A stretch of 64,000 nucleotides of DNA from positions 310,001 through 374,000 of the forward strand of contig NZ_CP061319.1 in NCBI RefSeq assembly GCF_018688455.1, written 5' to 3'. The position numbers and the translations under genes were made by a program. This document shows, piece by piece, positions 23,638 through 34,649 of the stretch (the stretch's first letter is position 1; each line of letters starts with the position of its first letter). A model generated the notes under the pieces. The model had not been told where the DNA came from. It saw only the letters and a list, made by a program, of their open reading frames with translations, and searched no databases. The stretch is from Polynucleobacter sp. AM-7D1. Its GTDB lineage: Bacteria; Pseudomonadota; Gammaproteobacteria; Burkholderiales; Burkholderiaceae.

Positions 23638-24477
23638 TTATTTTAAGAAAACATCAAGATGCAGATTAAGCGCACCCTTAATTAATAAACTAATTGCAAT
23701 CAATAGGGTAAAAATAGCAAAGATGAGTTGGACATTCGGGCCGCTCATTTTTTTGCCTAAGAGTTGTCCAAATAATAAGCCAACTAGCGCTGCTAGAGAG
23801 AAGGGTGCAGCAACGATGAGATTGAGGTTGCCGGAAGCGGCAGAGAAAATTGCGCCACCGCCAGTAACGATGGCAAGCACTCCAAGCGAGGTCGCTACGA
23901 TGGACTTCACAGGTAGATCTGTATAACGTTTTAGCGCTGGAACAATAATGAACCCACCACCAACCCCCAATAAGCCAGATAAAAAACCTGCAAGACTTCC
24001 AGAAACCATTAGGGCGCGTGCGCAAGGTACTGTCCACTGCAGTTTTCCGATTGATGGATTCATTAAACAGGGGGGAGGTTTGCGATTGGGCTCAGGAATG
24101 CCTTTTAGTTCATTCCGGGCTTGACTCAATAATCGAATGGCAACGTACAAGAGAATCAAGCTAAACAAGATCTGCAAGGGCGCATTAGGAATTTGGGGTG
24201 CGACCCAAAGGCCCAATGGTGAAAGCGCCAAACCAAAAATCGCCATAAAACCAGCCGCTTTGTAGCGCAAGATCTTATTTCTGAGGCCTAGAATGGCCCC
24301 AATGCTAGAGGCAAGGGCTACAGCACACAGTGCTATAGGTGCCGCTTCAGCAATGGGTAATCCCAAAAAGAAGACTAAAAGCGGTACGGACAAGATGCCA
24401 CCCCCAGCGCCGGTAAGGCCCATAAGGATGCCCACTAGGATGCCGAGTGCCGGGCTGATAAGAGTTGAGTAGTCCAT
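23638..24477 (-). CDS. TauE/SafE family sulfite/sulfur-compound exporter
   Basis: 279 residues, eight or nine membrane helices in two repeats, each with the family pattern: GILVGILMGLTGAGGGILSVPLLVFFLG and GFLSGLLGVGGGFIIVPALKRY. TauE/SafE proteins export sulfite, sulfoacetate or similar anions. Here it is divergent from a persulfide-dioxygenase-like gene and its BigR/SqrR-type regulator, across an AT-rich palindromic region. The same association is known for BigR operons of Xylella and Agrobacterium, where it is thought to remove sulfite made by the dioxygenase. Export of sulfite is thus inferred from context. Confidence 0.87.
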   Translation of the reverse strand: MDYSTLISPALGILVGILMGLTGAGGGILSVPLLVFFLGLPIAEAAPIALCAVALASSIGAILGLRNKILRYKAAGFMAIFGLALSPLGLWVAPQIPNAPLQILFSLILLYVAIRLLSQARNELKGIPEPNRKPPPCLMNPSIGKLQWTVPCARALMVSGSLAGFLSGLLGVGGGFIIVPALKRYTDLPVKSIVATSLGVLAIVTGGGAIFSAASGNLNLIVAAPFSLAALVGLLFGQLLGKKMSGPNVQLIFAIFTLLIAISLLIKGALNLHLDVFLK

Positions 24478-24489
24478 TGCAATTTATTT

Positions 24490-24518
24490 TATATTAATAT
24501 AGTATATAAATATATATT
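24490..24518. promoter_or_regulatory. AT-rich palindromic control region between the tauE-type and persulfide hydrolase genes
   Basis: The 65-base divergent gap is nearly all A and T and contains two exact palindromes, TATATTAATATA (24490-24501) and AATATATATT (24509-24518). BigR/SqrR repressors bind AT-rich inverted repeats that overlap the promoter. One repressor encoded downstream could therefore control both directions. Binding itself is inferred. Confidence 0.6.
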
Positions 24519-24542
24519 ATATTTATTCGACAGGAAAATATC

Positions 24543-25415
24543 TTGAACGCGCAACACACACCAATCATTAAAGATTTTTTTGACCCAGAAACCTGGACTT
24601 ATACCTATGTGGTTTATGAGGGTGAGGGCAGCCCTTGCGTCATCATTGATTCAGTCATGAACTATGACCCCAAATCAGGCAGAACTACTACCAAGTCTGC
24701 CGACGAGGTCATTGCCTTCGTGAAGGCGCACCAGCTGCAAGTAGCTTGGATTTTGGAGACCCATGCCCATGCAGACCATTTAACTGCTGCTCCTTACCTG
24801 CAAAGTCACCTAGGTGGCAAATTAGTTATTGGCGATCACATCACTAATGTACAGAAAGTATTTAAAGGCGTCTTCAATTTAGATGAGAACTTTAAGGTGG
24901 ATGGCACTCAGTTTGATCAATTGCTCAAAGAGGGTGAGTCACTCCCTTTTGGAAACCTCTCTTTAAAAGCCCTTTTTGTACCAGGCCACACCCCAGCTTG
25001 TATGGCTTACGAAATCGGTGATGCGATCTTTGTAGGTGATACCTTATTTATGCCGGATGTTGGTACAGCCCGTTGTGATTTCCCAGGTGGTGATGCGAAG
25101 ACGCTTTATCGCTCCATTCAGAAGATCTTGTCCTACTCTGGCGAGACAAAGCTGTACATGTGCCATGACTATCCACCAAATAACAGACCTGCGACAGGTG
25201 TCACTACTGTCGCTGATGAGAAGGCAAACAATATCCATGTGCATGATGGCGTGACTGAGGAGCAATTTGTGGCGATGCGAACTACACGAGATAAAACCTT
25301 AGATATGCCAACATTAATATTGCCTTCTATTCAGGTCAATATTCGAGCTGGTCATTTTCCTGAGGCAGATAGCAATGGGGTTGCTTATCTCAAAATTCCA
25401 TTGAATGCACTCTGA
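24543..25415 (+). CDS. blh: MBL-fold persulfide dioxygenase-like hydrolase (Blh/ETHE1 family)
   Basis: 290 residues from TTG, with AGGA upstream. The metal site reads LETHAHADHLTAAPYL (HxHxDH), GHTPACMAYEIGD, and DTLFMPDVGTARCDFPGG. The single-iron persulfide dioxygenase pattern (His, His, Asp; Asp after GDTLF; CHDY with His near residue 205) is complete. Blh proteins oxidise glutathione persulfide to sulfite and are controlled by BigR in Xylella and Agrobacterium. Here the regulator overlaps its 3' end or follows within 14 bases, and a DUF2892 gene comes next. The expected partner steps are sulfide oxidation elsewhere and sulfite export by the divergent TauE. Confidence 0.88.
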   Translation: MNAQHTPIIKDFFDPETWTYTYVVYEGEGSPCVIIDSVMNYDPKSGRTTTKSADEVIAFVKAHQLQVAWILETHAHADHLTAAPYLQSHLGGKLVIGDHITNVQKVFKGVFNLDENFKVDGTQFDQLLKEGESLPFGNLSLKALFVPGHTPACMAYEIGDAIFVGDTLFMPDVGTARCDFPGGDAKTLYRSIQKILSYSGETKLYMCHDYPPNNRPATGVTTVADEKANNIHVHDGVTEEQFVAMRTTRDKTLDMPTLILPSIQVNIRAGHFPEADSNGVAYLKIPLNAL

Positions 25416-25428
25416 TTGGAATATGACG

Positions 25429-25746
25429 ATGAATATGCCTATCTCCAAAGCAGAATTGAAAAAAATGCAGTCATCAGCGGATGATGCTTGCAAGCTGATG
25501 AAGGTCTTATCTAACCGAGATCGCATGATGCTCTTGTGCGAAATCGGCCAAGCAGAAAAATGCGTTAGTGAGCTAGAGACTGCTCTAGATTTACATCAAC
25601 CCACACTCTCACAGCAGCTCACGGTGTTGCGTAAAGAAAAGCTGGTGAAAACACGTAGAGATGGTAAGCAAATTTACTACTCCCTATCAAGCCAAGTTGC
25701 TGTATCAGTTATGAGTTTGCTCTATAAGCACTACTGTAAAAAGTGA
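25429..25746 (+). CDS. bigR: ArsR-family persulfide-sensing repressor, BigR/SqrR type
   Basis: 105 residues from ATG 25429, which has TTGGA at a good distance; earlier in-frame ATGs at 25405 and 25423 fit worse. Winged helix-turn-helix with recognition region LHQPTLSQQLTVLRKEKLV and wing RRDGKQIYYSL. Cys37 (in MMLLCEIG) and Cys103 (in YKHYCKK) are 66 residues apart, exactly the spacing of the C41/C107 pair in SqrR and C42/C108 in BigR that forms a sulfur bridge and releases DNA. Two other Cys (21, 45) are present. It should repress its own operon and the divergent exporter. Confidence 0.9.
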   Translation: MNMPISKAELKKMQSSADDACKLMKVLSNRDRMMLLCEIGQAEKCVSELETALDLHQPTLSQQLTVLRKEKLVKTRRDGKQIYYSLSSQVAVSVMSLLYKHYCKK

Positions 25747-25787
25747 TTGCGAAGAAGTATTTAATTATTTTTTAAAGGGAGTTCAAT

Positions 25788-26000
25788 ATGAAATGTAACG
25801 TCGGCGGTATCGATCGTATCTTAAGAATCGCAGTAGGCATTGTGTTAGTTGCGCTTGCAGCCAACGGTATCGTAGGTTGGTGGGGCTGGCTTGGACTAAT
25901 TCCTTTAGCTACTGGAATTTTCCGTTTCTGCCCGGCTTATCCATTATTGGGAATGAATTCTTGTGGAACTTCATCTGAAGCAGATTCTTGCTGTAAGTAA
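25788..26000 (+). CDS. DUF2892 (YgaP-like transmembrane) protein
   Basis: 70 residues, preceded by AAAGGGAG. Begins MKCNVGGIDRILRIAVGIVL, the N-terminal pattern of DUF2892, with two membrane helices and an RFCPAYPLLGMNSC segment. It ends in a Cys-rich tail (DSCCK). DUF2892 domains occur alone or fused to rhodanese (YgaP) and are recurrent in sulfide-responsive operons. The five Cys are consistent with contact to sulfane sulfur, but the function is unknown. It is the last gene before a bidirectional terminator. Confidence 0.85.
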   Translation: MKCNVGGIDRILRIAVGIVLVALAANGIVGWWGWLGLIPLATGIFRFCPAYPLLGMNSCGTSSEADSCCK

Positions 26001-26069: not shown

Positions 26070-26486
26070 TCATTTTTTAGTGTAAATACCGTGCAGCAAA
26101 AAGATTGCAAAGAACGCAGTACCAAGCATCCAGTGCGTTGTAATAACTGGATCTCGAATTTCTGCAGGGCCGTAGTAGAGCAGAGCCCCAGAAACTAATA
26201 AAGTAGTTAAAAAAGCTAATTGGCTTAAACCACTCCACACCTTCCTCTTAGACTTCAGGCCTGCCTTCAGGTGGGCGGGCAAAACCGAACCCAGAGCCAT
26301 CGTGGCCATGATTGCTGTAATGCCATGCCACGCTAATACTGAGTGGGCACCCAATACATCACGTTGAATATGCAATTCATGACCAAGTAAATAGGCTATG
26401 CCGGTAAGTGAGCAGCTCAACATGGCAATGATTACAGAATGTCTTTGCCAGCCGGGCATTTTGCCAAGGCGACTAGTATTTTTCAT
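26070..26486 (-). CDS. Small His-rich membrane protein, putative b-type cytochrome (DUF4405-like)
   Basis: 138 residues from ATG 26486, which overlaps the ApbE stop as ATGA; the longer upstream frame is a shadow of apbE. Four hydrophobic helices. The last helix has two His with 13 residues between them (THWMLGTAFFAIFLLHG), the HX13H spacing by which helices ligate two stacked haems in cytochromes b. The second helix also has His at both ends (WHGITAI...LPAH). I infer a quinol- or membrane-side electron donor to the flavoprotein encoded two genes upstream. Family not firmly recognised; a haem-free membrane protein remains possible. Confidence 0.62.
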   Translation of the reverse strand: MKNTSRLGKMPGWQRHSVIIAMLSCSLTGIAYLLGHELHIQRDVLGAHSVLAWHGITAIMATMALGSVLPAHLKAGLKSKRKVWSGLSQLAFLTTLLVSGALLYYGPAEIRDPVITTHWMLGTAFFAIFLLHGIYTKK

Positions 26487-27310
26487 GGGGTGAGCGTGTT
26501 GGGGACTTTGATGGCTTGTGCAGAAAAATGCCTCAAGCAGGGGTGCTGGGTATTTCCAGAAATACTCACTACTTTGGTTAAGGCATCTGCGTAGACACAT
26601 TGATTTGCGATCACTGAGTAAGACTCTGAAAATTCAAGATACTCTTGATTGAGGGGATTGACCAGATAGCTTTTGTCATCAGTATCGCGCTTTGAAAAGT
26701 AGAGGCCGCTGGTTGCGATCGCACCCTTCCTGATGTTGCCAATGTGGATAAGTTCACAGGGATTCGCTGGATTACGAATATGAATGTCTTGACTGCAATC
26801 GCCAAAAACCCGCAAATCTCCGCCGGCATTCACTGATCCAGATTGGATGCCGCCAGTAAATAAGATCTCTGCCGCCCTATCCACAGCGTAGCCTTTAGCA
26901 ATACCTCCAAGATCAAGACAGAGTGGGACCGTGGAGTACACCAAGTTTGGCTCAAGAAATAGGACATCTTCAATGCCTCCAAATGCATGAGCACCCAAGC
27001 AGACATGCTTAGGAAGTAGGCCTGCCTCTACTAAGAGGTGCCCAATCCCGCAATTAAATAGGCCATTTGAGAGTTGATAAATCTCTTTGGCAATCGAAAG
27101 CACCTCAGCAGTCCAGGAGTGGATTTGAAGAGGTTCTAAATATGAGCTGGCATTTATTTGAGAAAGCTCACTCTCTGGATTGTGAAAGCCCATCAAGGAT
27201 TGCACTTGCTCAATAGCTAGGAAAGCTTCGTTTAGCACTTTCGAAGATTGCAACTCATCCTCAATTCTGATTTCTACGAAGGTGCCTAAAAGCGGCTTGC
27301 AGCGAATCAT
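26483..27310 (-). CDS. apbE: FAD:protein FMN transferase, ApbE family
   Basis: 275 residues. Family marks in order: KPLLGTFVEIRI at the N-terminus, FHNPESELSQIN, DLGGIAKGYAVDRAAEIL, GSVNAGGDLRVFG, and CVYADALTKV, whose Asp belongs to the metal site. ApbE moves FMN from FAD onto a Thr or Ser of partner proteins. It overlaps the flavoprotein gene by 4 bases, naming its likely substrate. Unlike most ApbE proteins working in the periplasm, it has no lipoprotein or Tat/Sec signal: the protein starts directly at the domain, and the start is fixed by the overlap. It is shorter than typical ApbE (about 330-350). Confidence 0.9.
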   Translation of the reverse strand: MIRCKPLLGTFVEIRIEDELQSSKVLNEAFLAIEQVQSLMGFHNPESELSQINASSYLEPLQIHSWTAEVLSIAKEIYQLSNGLFNCGIGHLLVEAGLLPKHVCLGAHAFGGIEDVLFLEPNLVYSTVPLCLDLGGIAKGYAVDRAAEILFTGGIQSGSVNAGGDLRVFGDCSQDIHIRNPANPCELIHIGNIRKGAIATSGLYFSKRDTDDKSYLVNPLNQEYLEFSESYSVIANQCVYADALTKVVSISGNTQHPCLRHFSAQAIKVPNTLTP

Positions 27311-27861
27311 TTTGCTTTTGGAATTGAAGTTTGATGTTTTAAGGCGATGTCGTATAAGACGGTAACCCGCTTGACGCCATCCGTGAGATGTTTACAAGAA
27401 AGGGTGGCGCCGCCGATATTTTGAATATCTTTGTTCAGCTTAATAGGGTCTACTGCTGTTTTACCTACGAACTGTTTACGCCACTGGTCTTCTGCCACTT
27501 CGTAGCCATAGGATTCAACATACTCCAGAATCTCGATTCCAGTCACCGCTCCGGATGGGTTTAGTGCTACTGCATAGGTAATCATTTCATGTTTGCCAAC
27601 CACCTCATCTACGATGAACCAGCTCCCATCGGATGCTTTCCAAATTCGATCGCCTTGAAAGGGGTGGCGAATACTTGAAGCAGAACGCATTTTGTCTTGT
27701 AATTCATCGGTGATGATGATGGGATTTTTCGCAAGAGACTTATTAGGAGCGAGTATCTTTTGCGCTTTCTCAATAGATACATAAATCTTGGCATGTGCAA
27801 CTATTGGTATTGTTGCTGCAACAAGGCCAATGATGAGTAAGGGGTTGGGTTTCCAGTTCAT
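27307..27861 (-). CDS. Exported FMN-binding-domain protein with ApbE flavinylation motif
   Basis: 184 residues, preceded by AAGGAAGAG. An N-terminal Sec signal (about 1-24, ending VAHA) gives an exported protein. The FMN_bind domain follows: GDRIWKASDGSWFIVDEVVGKHEMITYAVAL, GAVTGIEILEYVESYGYEV, and near the C-terminus NIGGATLSCKHLTDGVKRV. In the GATLS core the Thr is the expected site for phosphoester-linked FMN, with the first motif residue Gly instead of the usual Ser. Similar to RnfG/NqrC/NosR-type domains in single-domain form. It probably passes electrons outside the cytoplasmic membrane. Gene order: barrel, flavoprotein, ApbE, membrane protein. Confidence 0.85.
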   Translation of the reverse strand: MNWKPNPLLIIGLVAATIPIVAHAKIYVSIEKAQKILAPNKSLAKNPIIITDELQDKMRSASSIRHPFQGDRIWKASDGSWFIVDEVVGKHEMITYAVALNPSGAVTGIEILEYVESYGYEVAEDQWRKQFVGKTAVDPIKLNKDIQNIGGATLSCKHLTDGVKRVTVLYDIALKHQTSIPKAK

Positions 27862-27871
27862 GCTCTCTTCC

Positions 27872-28786
27872 TTAGTTCAAAGGAAATCCAACTTTGACAA
27901 TGAATTCATTGACAGAGTGACTATCCCAAACTCGGGCGTTGGAGCATTCTGCTTCACCGCCACCCATGCAATTTCCACCCTTTAACTGATAGCGCCATGC
28001 ACCGGTAACCCACCAGTCTTTTGCAGCGTAGTGCATGTTTGGTCCAACAAAGGTTGCACGCTGTACTTGATTTCGTAAATTCAATTCTGAGTAGTCATTA
28101 TGAAAGCGCGCTTCAACACCGGCAGACCATTTGGGGGCAAATCGGTAACTAGCTCCTACAAGAAAATCGAGCATGGATTCAGGGACATTGCCATTCTCAA
28201 TAAATTTCAAGCGTTCATTTGCTACGACCACGTTGCCTGCTAATACCAGTCGGTCATCAATGAAGTTCGATTGCAAGAGAAGGCGAGCCTCAATTTCATC
28301 TTTGTTTCTACCCCAGGTAGGTTCTAGATACAGTCCTACTCCAACGGGCGATGTCACTGGATTAGTGAGTCGATAAATGGCTTCTAAGGAGCCACCCTCA
28401 ATGCCACTTTTTCTATAGGGGGTGGCAGGATCATGGCTTGATGGCACCCCATATCCACCTGTGCAACTTGCAACATCACCACAAGCCTCGGGGTTGGTGT
28501 AATTTTGATTTGCACTGGTGTAATAAGAGTTGATGTAGCCAGCGATTTGCAAATCATTAGTCAAGCCATATTCAAGTTCAGTTCGGGCGGTCCAGGCATC
28601 GTAGGTGCCAGCAGCTTGCTGTTTATTGAGCTGTAAGCGTTGCTCAAACTCGAGCTTTCCTTTTGGCTGGAGATCGAGGGTGTAAATCCATCCAAACGCC
28701 CCTTCGCCCGCATTGGCGAATGAGAAGTGCAAGGCGGTGGCTAATAGGATGCTGAAGGCTACGAGTCTTTTGATAGTCAGTTTCAT
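27872..28786 (-). CDS. Outer-membrane beta-barrel protein (DUF6662-like), first gene of a Fur-controlled operon
   Basis: 304 residues from ATG 28786, giving a clean signal peptide (MKLTIKRLVAFSILL..., cut near ANA); the frame is open further up, but that part overlaps the Fur sites. The mature protein is a run of amphipathic beta strands with alternating aromatic residues (LEFEQRLQLNKQ, LTNDLQIAGYINSYY, VGVGLYLEPTWG) and ends in a terminal aromatic-containing strand FIVKVGFPLN. A short loop has paired Cys (ACGDVASC) and another has CMGGGEAEC. No plug or TonB box is seen. Function unknown; by operon and Fur control, iron-related. Confidence 0.75.
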   Translation of the reverse strand: MKLTIKRLVAFSILLATALHFSFANAGEGAFGWIYTLDLQPKGKLEFEQRLQLNKQQAAGTYDAWTARTELEYGLTNDLQIAGYINSYYTSANQNYTNPEACGDVASCTGGYGVPSSHDPATPYRKSGIEGGSLEAIYRLTNPVTSPVGVGLYLEPTWGRNKDEIEARLLLQSNFIDDRLVLAGNVVVANERLKFIENGNVPESMLDFLVGASYRFAPKWSAGVEARFHNDYSELNLRNQVQRATFVGPNMHYAAKDWWVTGAWRYQLKGGNCMGGGEAECSNARVWDSHSVNEFIVKVGFPLN

Positions 28787-28813
28787 GGTGATAGTAATTA
28801 GTGAATAAAAGTT

Positions 28814-28832
28814 ATTGAGAATGATTCTCAAT
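28814..28832. promoter_or_regulatory. Fur box 1 (perfect 9-1-9 palindrome)
   Basis: ATTGAGAATGATTCTCAAT is a perfect 9-1-9 inverted repeat and matches the GATAATGATAATCATTATC Fur consensus at most positions. It lies 28 bases before the ATG of the minus-strand barrel gene, where it would block the promoter when iron is plentiful. Confidence 0.88.
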
Positions 28833-28840
28833 ATACAGTA

Positions 28841-28865
28841 AATGAGAACAATTCTCAATTGAGAA
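28841..28865. promoter_or_regulatory. Fur box 2 with overlapping third half-sites
   Basis: AATGAGAACAATTCTCAAT (28841-28859) is a 9-1-9 repeat with two mismatched pairs, and TTCTCAATTGAGAA (28852-28865) is an exact palindrome overlapping it. With box 1 this makes an extended array as at strongly iron-regulated promoters. It also lies upstream of the rightward DUF3820 gene. Confidence 0.8.
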
Positions 28866-28932
28866 AATGACCCTGTTTGGCTTGGTGTTGAGATTTGGCT
28901 GGGAACTTGCTGGGGCTTGTAAGATCAGGGCT

Positions 28933-29175
28933 ATGGATTCAGAAGCCCTGGTGAAGCTAGTCACAATGAAGATGCCTTTTGGCAAGCATGCTGGTCGCGC
29001 GCTTGCGGACTTGCCTGGTAATTACTTGGCCTGGTTCGCTCGCGAAGGCTTCCCTCAGGGTGAGCTAGGTCAGTTGCTGGAGCTAATGCATACCCTGGAT
29101 CACAATGGATTACGAGGCTTGTTGGCGCCTATTCAGCGGGCCCATGGGATTGCTCCCCGCACTCGGGAGCAATAG
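28933..29175 (+). CDS. DUF3820 family protein
   Basis: 80 residues from ATG 28933; the frame is open from ATG 28867, but family members begin at this position (MDSEALVKLVTMKMPFGKH). Conserved features are MPFGKHAGRALADLPGNYLAWFAREGFPQGELG and the final GLRGLLAPI. The family is described as a putative quorum-sensing-regulated virulence factor; its fold is small and helical, with no known activity. It lies close to the Fur sites, so iron regulation of this gene too is possible if transcription starts nearby. Confidence 0.78.
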   Translation: MDSEALVKLVTMKMPFGKHAGRALADLPGNYLAWFAREGFPQGELGQLLELMHTLDHNGLRGLLAPIQRAHGIAPRTREQ

Positions 29176-34398: not shown

Positions 34399-34649
34399 AC
34401 GCCACAGTTTACGATCTATGCGCGTATTGGGTTGGCTCGGTGGATTCCCTTAAATTGCCCGACTTCAGTCAATTTGGTGCCCAAATCCCCTTAAATAGCC
34501 GGGTTCGATGATTTAAAATAGATGTCTCGGTCCAGTGCGTGAAATATCACCCAAGATAGCCAAAAGCGCCTGAAGTGTTGCGCATGGAACGCGAGAGTGG
34601 TTCGGTATAAGGCCGAGCCCTAATATTTATCCATATCGAGGAAACATCA
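34399..34649. other. Upstream region of the isocitrate dehydrogenase gene
   Basis: 251 bases with no gene. It holds a 7-base hairpin GGTTCGG/CCGAGCC (one G-U pair) at 34599-34619, 31 bases before the start codon, and GAGGAAAC as ribosome-binding site. A GGTTCGAT at about 34503 resembles a tRNA T-loop, but no cloverleaf surrounds it. Confidence 0.4.

Follow-up and report, generated by a model that had tools for sequence, protein, structure and literature searches.

A putative Fur-regulated flavinylation operon of Polynucleobacter sp. AM-7D1 and its possible role in ferric iron reduction

Using open reading frame (ORF) calling together with the sequence itself, a minus-strand operon of four genes has been identified at positions 26070-28786 of the window, the 64,000-nucleotide (nt) stretch of the Polynucleobacter sp. 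AM-7D1 genome analysed here (contig NZ_CP061319.1, positions 310,001 to 374,000). In order, the genes encode an outer-membrane barrel of family DUF6662, an exported FMN_bind protein, ApbE and a small protein with four transmembrane (TM) helices. The operon is probably (at about 0.6) a ferric reductase chain of iron limitation, which would move electrons outward to reduce ferric iron before its uptake. This reading is favoured by the association of FMN_bind with FeoB, the upstream Fur boxes, the gene order and its iron-related neighbours, the TM histidines of the small protein, the channel model of the barrel and precedents among known systems. The conserved four-gene module is common to many environmental bacteria of several phyla.

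The genes are tightly packed: 10 nt separate the barrel gene from FMN_bind, and FMN_bind and ApbE, like ApbE and the membrane protein, overlap by 4 nt. An earlier note made from the letters alone (the original prediction) had proposed four such minus-strand genes behind tandem boxes, and ORF calling, sequence and Pfam agree with it at every coordinate. The barrel ORF as listed has 328 amino acids (aa) and begins with a TTG at 28858, while the ATG start used in Table 1 gives 28786-27872. ApbE and FMN_bind genes are both present, the Pfam pair that marks a flavinylation-based extracytosolic electron transfer system, and genome-wide (E <= 0.001) neither has a second match besides the operon's own. 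The flavin mononucleotide (FMN) acceptor motif D-x-x-[S/T]-G-A-[S/T] retains [S/T/G]GAT, with the Asp two residues further upstream (DIxNISGAT); replacing the motif's Asp with Ala made little difference in one model enzyme, as described in PMC12052999. The nearest named proteins are from Polynucleobacter, with 83% for P. asymbioticus (P0010) and 81% for P. bastaniensis (P0059).

Table 1. Features of the operon and its upstream region, in window coordinates
Feature	Position	Strand	Remarks
DUF6662 outer-membrane barrel	27872..28786	-	304 aa from ATG; signal peptide by eye; Pfam 2.4e-12
Exported FMN_bind protein	27307..27861	-	184 aa; Sec-type leader by eye; GKHE and NIGGATLS motifs; Pfam 1.9e-9
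Codon of Thr153, predicted FMN acceptor in (S/G)GAT motif	27403..27405	-	from sequence
Leaderless ApbE	26483..27310	-	275 aa; Pfam 1.1e-38; Tyr215, Lys246, Ser201, Asp242
4-TM putative diheme b-type cytochrome	26070..26486	-	138 aa; His54, His72, His118, His132
Fur box 1	28841..28859		letters on + strand AATGAGAACAATTCTCAAT; 2 mismatches to ATTGAGAATNATTCTCAAT; overlaps -35-like hexamer
Fur box 2	28814..28832		letters on + strand ATTGAGAATGATTCTCAAT; perfect match; 27 nt from box 1, beside -10-like hexamer
Sigma-70-like promoter TTGAGA-N17-TATATT	28830..28858	-	embedded in box pair; 10/12 matches; weak alone

Judging by the conserved box at its promoter, the operon would belong to the Fur regulon and is very probably iron-repressed. 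Scanning the single-contig 1.93-Mb genome with up to 3 mismatches returned four sites only, namely the operon pair (0 and 2 mismatches) and two elsewhere (3 each), and the backwards control pattern returned none in the whole genome; the perfect 19-nt box occurs once, and the sole other site with <= 2 mismatches is its partner. The genome encodes one FUR-family gene. Tandem boxes, 27 or 28 nt apart, recur in all 30 best loci of the genus, the window's own included (better box with <= 2 mismatches, the other with <= 4), and 33 of the best 80 loci outside the genus have a Fur-like box (<= 3 mismatches) in the region from 350 nt upstream of the first gene to 60 nt into it. The backwards pattern occurs there in 1 of the 80, and 2.6% of other stretches of those loci have such a box. 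The Fur repression originally proposed is strongly supported by this comparison. The promoter scan overall gave fewer sigma-70-like sites than its shuffles. Two side observations concern the boxes: with no further consensus box at <= 2 mismatches, the operon may be the strongest Fur target in the genome, and the divergent QSregVF_b gene (28867-29175, plus strand) may be served by the same regulated region, its first ATG lying 8 nt away from Fur box 1.

The small membrane protein is a putative diheme b-type cytochrome. Its four invariant or near-invariant TM histidines are arranged as in diheme b561-type cytochromes, and its model has four helical spans, with a break in the second at 67-68, rather than the six TM helices of DUF4405. 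The protein has no Pfam match above cut-off; at E <= 0.1, 7 of 22 relatives match cytochrome b561 (best 1.1e-6) and 4 of 22 match DUF4405 (best 7.7e-7), the window protein itself having no DUF4405 match. The histidines and these weak matches of its relatives support the haem-like character that had been suggested for it.

The DUF6662 protein models as a 12-strand channel (AlphaFold2, AF2), with the COG4313 channel and FapF as its best VIA-align matches, followed by autotransporter and KdgM barrels; no paper on DUF6662 was found in the open-access literature searched. In porin-cytochrome conduits of the MtrAB type, too, an outer-membrane barrel is encoded together with a periplasmic redox protein. 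The module shares this arrangement, but the multihaem c-type cytochrome of such conduits has no counterpart in it, the CxxCH motif being absent from all four operon proteins, and the 12-strand barrel of the model is an improbable passage for a globular FMN_bind domain.

Within Polynucleobacter, FMN_bind is present in 90 of 121 genomes. Gene content was compared in 50 genus loci -- the 30 best, with the window's own among them, and 20 chosen, mostly divergent ones, of 93 matches -- and 46 of these have all four genes (tblastn, E <= 1e-3). The exceptions are L037 and L041, where a divergent cytochrome gene is in place, L043, without a recognisable fourth gene, and L054, without a barrel match. 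A second FMN_bind copy occurs in two genomes, G008 and G039 (L048, L049), and the FMN_bind match is flagged with stop codons in G103, G086, G114 and G117. Bona fide FeoB (best E < 1e-40) is found in 69 of the 121 genomes, 66 of them above the curated cut-off; it accompanies FMN_bind in 65 of 90 genomes and occurs in 4 of the 31 without it, 11 of these 31 having been assigned by elimination (Fisher p ~7e-9, kinship ignored). TonB receptors are present in 119 of the 121, so the operon does not simply stand in for them.

Outside the genus, a profile scan of GTDB contigs gave at least 523 relatives, the best 80 of which, none titled Polynucleobacter, were retained. The exact order of barrel, FMN_bind, ApbE and cytochrome appears in 59 of the 80 and, allowing duplicated genes or split ORFs, in 65. 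Seven of the remaining loci miss only a recognisable barrel and 8 are otherwise incomplete, several at contig ends. Titles include Sulfuriferula, Thiobacillus, Gallionellales, Methylophilaceae, Thiomonas, Microbulbifer, Cellvibrio, Thiomicrorhabdus, Luteibacter, Sphingopyxis, Novosphingobium, Kordiimonas, Verrucomicrobia, Omnitrophota and Bdellovibrio. In hidden Markov model (HMM) searches of order and phylum genomes, which are independent of motif bias, 28 of 399 order genomes matched the barrel profile, 21 from outside the genus, and 19 of 398 phylum genomes matched the FMN profile, 14 from outside, with some matches weak. Eighteen such outside places were inspected with a script that masks genes beneath longer antisense ORFs; all 18 have at least two of the genes, and 7 have all four (L120-L124, L132, L137).

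By tblastn, the neighbours of the best 80 outside loci include FeoB (12), bacterioferritin (12), ExbB (5) and ExbD (6). At least one of these lies near 22 of the 80, examples being Pfam-confirmed, and many come from related Thiobacillus/Hydrogenophilales or Sulfuriferula records, hence they are not 22 independent events. Together with the co-occurrence of FeoB in the genus, these neighbours support the proposed link of the operon to iron uptake. A Porin_4-type porin was also seen near the module in 19 of the 80, mostly in Betaproteobacteria and mostly 2-3.5 kb downstream of FMN_bind (L140-L168 and others). Module-like sets were recognised by eye on two plasmids typed as conjugative, Novosphingobium resinovorum pSA1 (L222) and one of Bradyrhizobium sp. 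ISRA435 (L223), in the latter of which apbE is annotated as two coding sequences.

The flavinylation-based extracytosolic electron-transfer systems described by Meheust et al., 2021 (PMC8238504) share with the module an ApbE, an exported FMN_bind protein and a membrane electron carrier, which in the module is putative; the types named there are PepSY-like, MsrQ-like, NapH-like, DsbD and NQR/RNF-like. For the PepSY-like type, Fur repression in both Caulobacter and Shewanella and a connection with iron assimilation are reported. The module differs in its putative 4-TM b561-like carrier, its DUF6662 channel and its leaderless ApbE with an altered active site; genes without signal peptides were discarded in that survey. 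Small membrane b-haem cytochromes with four His beside apbE are also known from the DUF4405 family (mSystems 2024, PMC11334425), but these are described as six-TM-helix proteins, frequently accompanied by Flavodoxin_4, in contrast to the four TM helices, FMN_bind and barrel seen here. The Caulobacter cluster CC_3059-CC_3063 (PMC3751524) is likewise iron-responsive, with ApbE beside a haem flavoprotein entry; compared by annotation only, it comprises a transporter, DUF2271, DUF4198, ApbE and a "sulfite reductase flavoprotein (heme)". VciB of V. cholerae and FoxB of P. aeruginosa (PepSY-like; PMC8238504, PMC11334425) are further membrane haem proteins, with service in iron reduction reported for VciB, but the window's membrane protein has no Pfam relation to them and VciB is described as not associated with flavinylation components. 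The surveys PMC8238504 and PMC11334425 appear to describe related but different clusters. A search of the open-access literature, with subscription journals mostly outside it, found no description of the four-gene set, which the original prediction had likewise not recognised as a described system.

In the chain as we picture it, Fur would leave both boxes as iron drops, and the operon would be expressed. The four-helix protein would bind two b haems, with His54 and His118 near the periplasmic side and His72 and His132 near the cytoplasmic side, and would take electrons from quinol or a cytoplasmic donor. These would pass to the exported FMN_bind protein, its flavin expected on Thr153, and this flavin may then reduce ferric iron or ferric chelates entering the periplasm through the DUF6662 channel. 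Where FeoB is present it would import the Fe(II); elsewhere another transporter could do so, for instance the ZIP protein encoded in the window's genome.

Several observations weigh against such a ferric reductase. Twenty-five genus genomes with the operon's FMN_bind have no bona fide FeoB, and the p value for the association takes no account of kinship. The window's own genome is one of the 25, lacking an above-cut-off FeoB match and any match to Nramp or FTR1, and its four TonB receptor matches could be the Fe(III) route. Under the rule given above, 47 of the best 80 outside loci have no Fur-like box, and Foldseek gave zero matches to the cytochrome model at E <= 0.001. ApbE is leaderless, whereas its presumed substrate FMN_bind has a Sec-type leader by eye, and at the column of the catalytic His257 no His is found in 105 of the 120 module ApbEs that have a letter there, the window's residue being Tyr215.

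For these counts, 122 module ApbEs were aligned jointly with 12 control ApbEs from plasmids. His stands at the column in 15 of the 120 module rows and 11 of the 12 controls, and one position off in 6 more module rows; Pro (46), Tyr (19) and Phe (10) are the residues most often seen there in the module, and L121, not in the 122-row set, retains the His. In the AD-x-L-x-K motif, Lys is found in all 112 module rows matching a pattern that allowed Lys, Thr or Asn, and four further variant rows likewise end in Lys, as against Thr (10) or Asn (2) in the controls; in the window's ApbE it is Lys246 that takes the place of the Thr or Asn of ordinary ApbEs. The triad equivalents of Ser241 and Asp285 are retained as Ser201 and Asp242. 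On a quick tree, its states taken from a cruder regular expression that mis-scored some rows (e.g. L158), the "His" state must have switched at least 4 times within the 42 genus sequences and at least 7 times overall, and 10 controls lie on one side of a single branch. His257 seems to have been lost repeatedly, and its loss tolerated, while the acceptor Thr persists, a combination pointing either to another chemistry in this clade or to no FMN transfer. As for the leader, the N-terminal motif could be located in 68 of 75 outside ApbEs, and each of these 68 starts at most 32 residues before it and has no strongly hydrophobic segment there, under a rule that excluded starts deeper than 60 nt within the FMN gene; the missing leader is not unique to the module, as 7 of the 12 plasmid controls are also leaderless by eye. 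Of the original statement that ApbE attaches FMN, the family membership stands, and the attachment is weakened by the lack of both an export signal and the catalytic His257.

One possibility, offered tentatively, is that the ApbEs of this leaderless clade attach flavin to their partner while it is still in the cytoplasm, ahead of Sec export and without the His257 base, the clade's Lys and/or partner residues (GKHE) replacing it, within a widespread ferric reductase system that has its own channel. Alternatively, the module ApbE may no longer transfer FMN, being instead a protein that binds or hydrolyses flavin adenine dinucleotide (FAD), with FMN_bind holding a non-covalent flavin or none; this concerns the chemistry and is compatible with ferric reduction by the operon. 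His257 is given as absolutely conserved in PMC5655446, where H257G of V. cholerae ApbE nearly abolished transfer (the review PMC12052999 describes the activity of the His257 mutant as decreased), and its scarcity here, the Lys in place of Thr or Asn and the missing leader would all fit such a change. Loss of transfer is nevertheless doubtful, given that the acceptor Thr and GAT motif are invariant in A2 and A4, that the Ser241 and Asp285 equivalents and, in 15 of 120 copies, the His itself are kept, and that the genome's only ApbE is paired with its only FMN_bind.

The operon might also spare iron rather than reduce it as a substrate, its flavin protein replacing an iron-rich periplasmic cytochrome in respiration or in the reduction of another acceptor when iron is limiting. 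An interchange of flavin and haem in iron-poor settings is argued in PMC8238504, Fur control alone is compatible with it, and so are the 25 operon-bearing genomes without FeoB; but the chain itself seems to require haem, iron-uptake and storage genes adjoin the module, and a dedicated outer-membrane channel is conserved, which makes this role unlikely. Handling of superoxide or oxygen under low iron, by a CybB-like diheme protein exchanging electrons with quinone and superoxide with the help of the flavin protein, is very improbable.

Elsewhere in the window, positions 23638-26000 hold a neighbouring sulfide/persulfide-like cluster with a TauE-like permease (by eye), a YgaP-like TM protein, a metallo-beta-lactamase resembling the bifunctional sulfur transferase/dioxygenase Blh and a BigR-like ArsR regulator, the last two below the NCBIfam cut-off. 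The only Rfam match at gathering score in the window is an icd-II non-coding RNA motif (RF04189, 118 bits) at 34505-34641 on the plus strand.

FeoB depends on a periplasmic ferric reductase for ferrous uptake, and this enzyme has not been identified in every case: in P. asymbioticus ferrous uptake is described as the only known route (PMC6629928), and for the Sphingobium SYK-6 genome PMC7376174 reports no VciB-like reductase. The module is a candidate for this part in several phyla. Its ApbE clade is also a natural test of whether protein flavinylation requires His257, and of where an exported flavoprotein acquires its flavin; if flavinylation free of His257 is indeed what this clade carries out, the accepted ApbE mechanism would not be universal.

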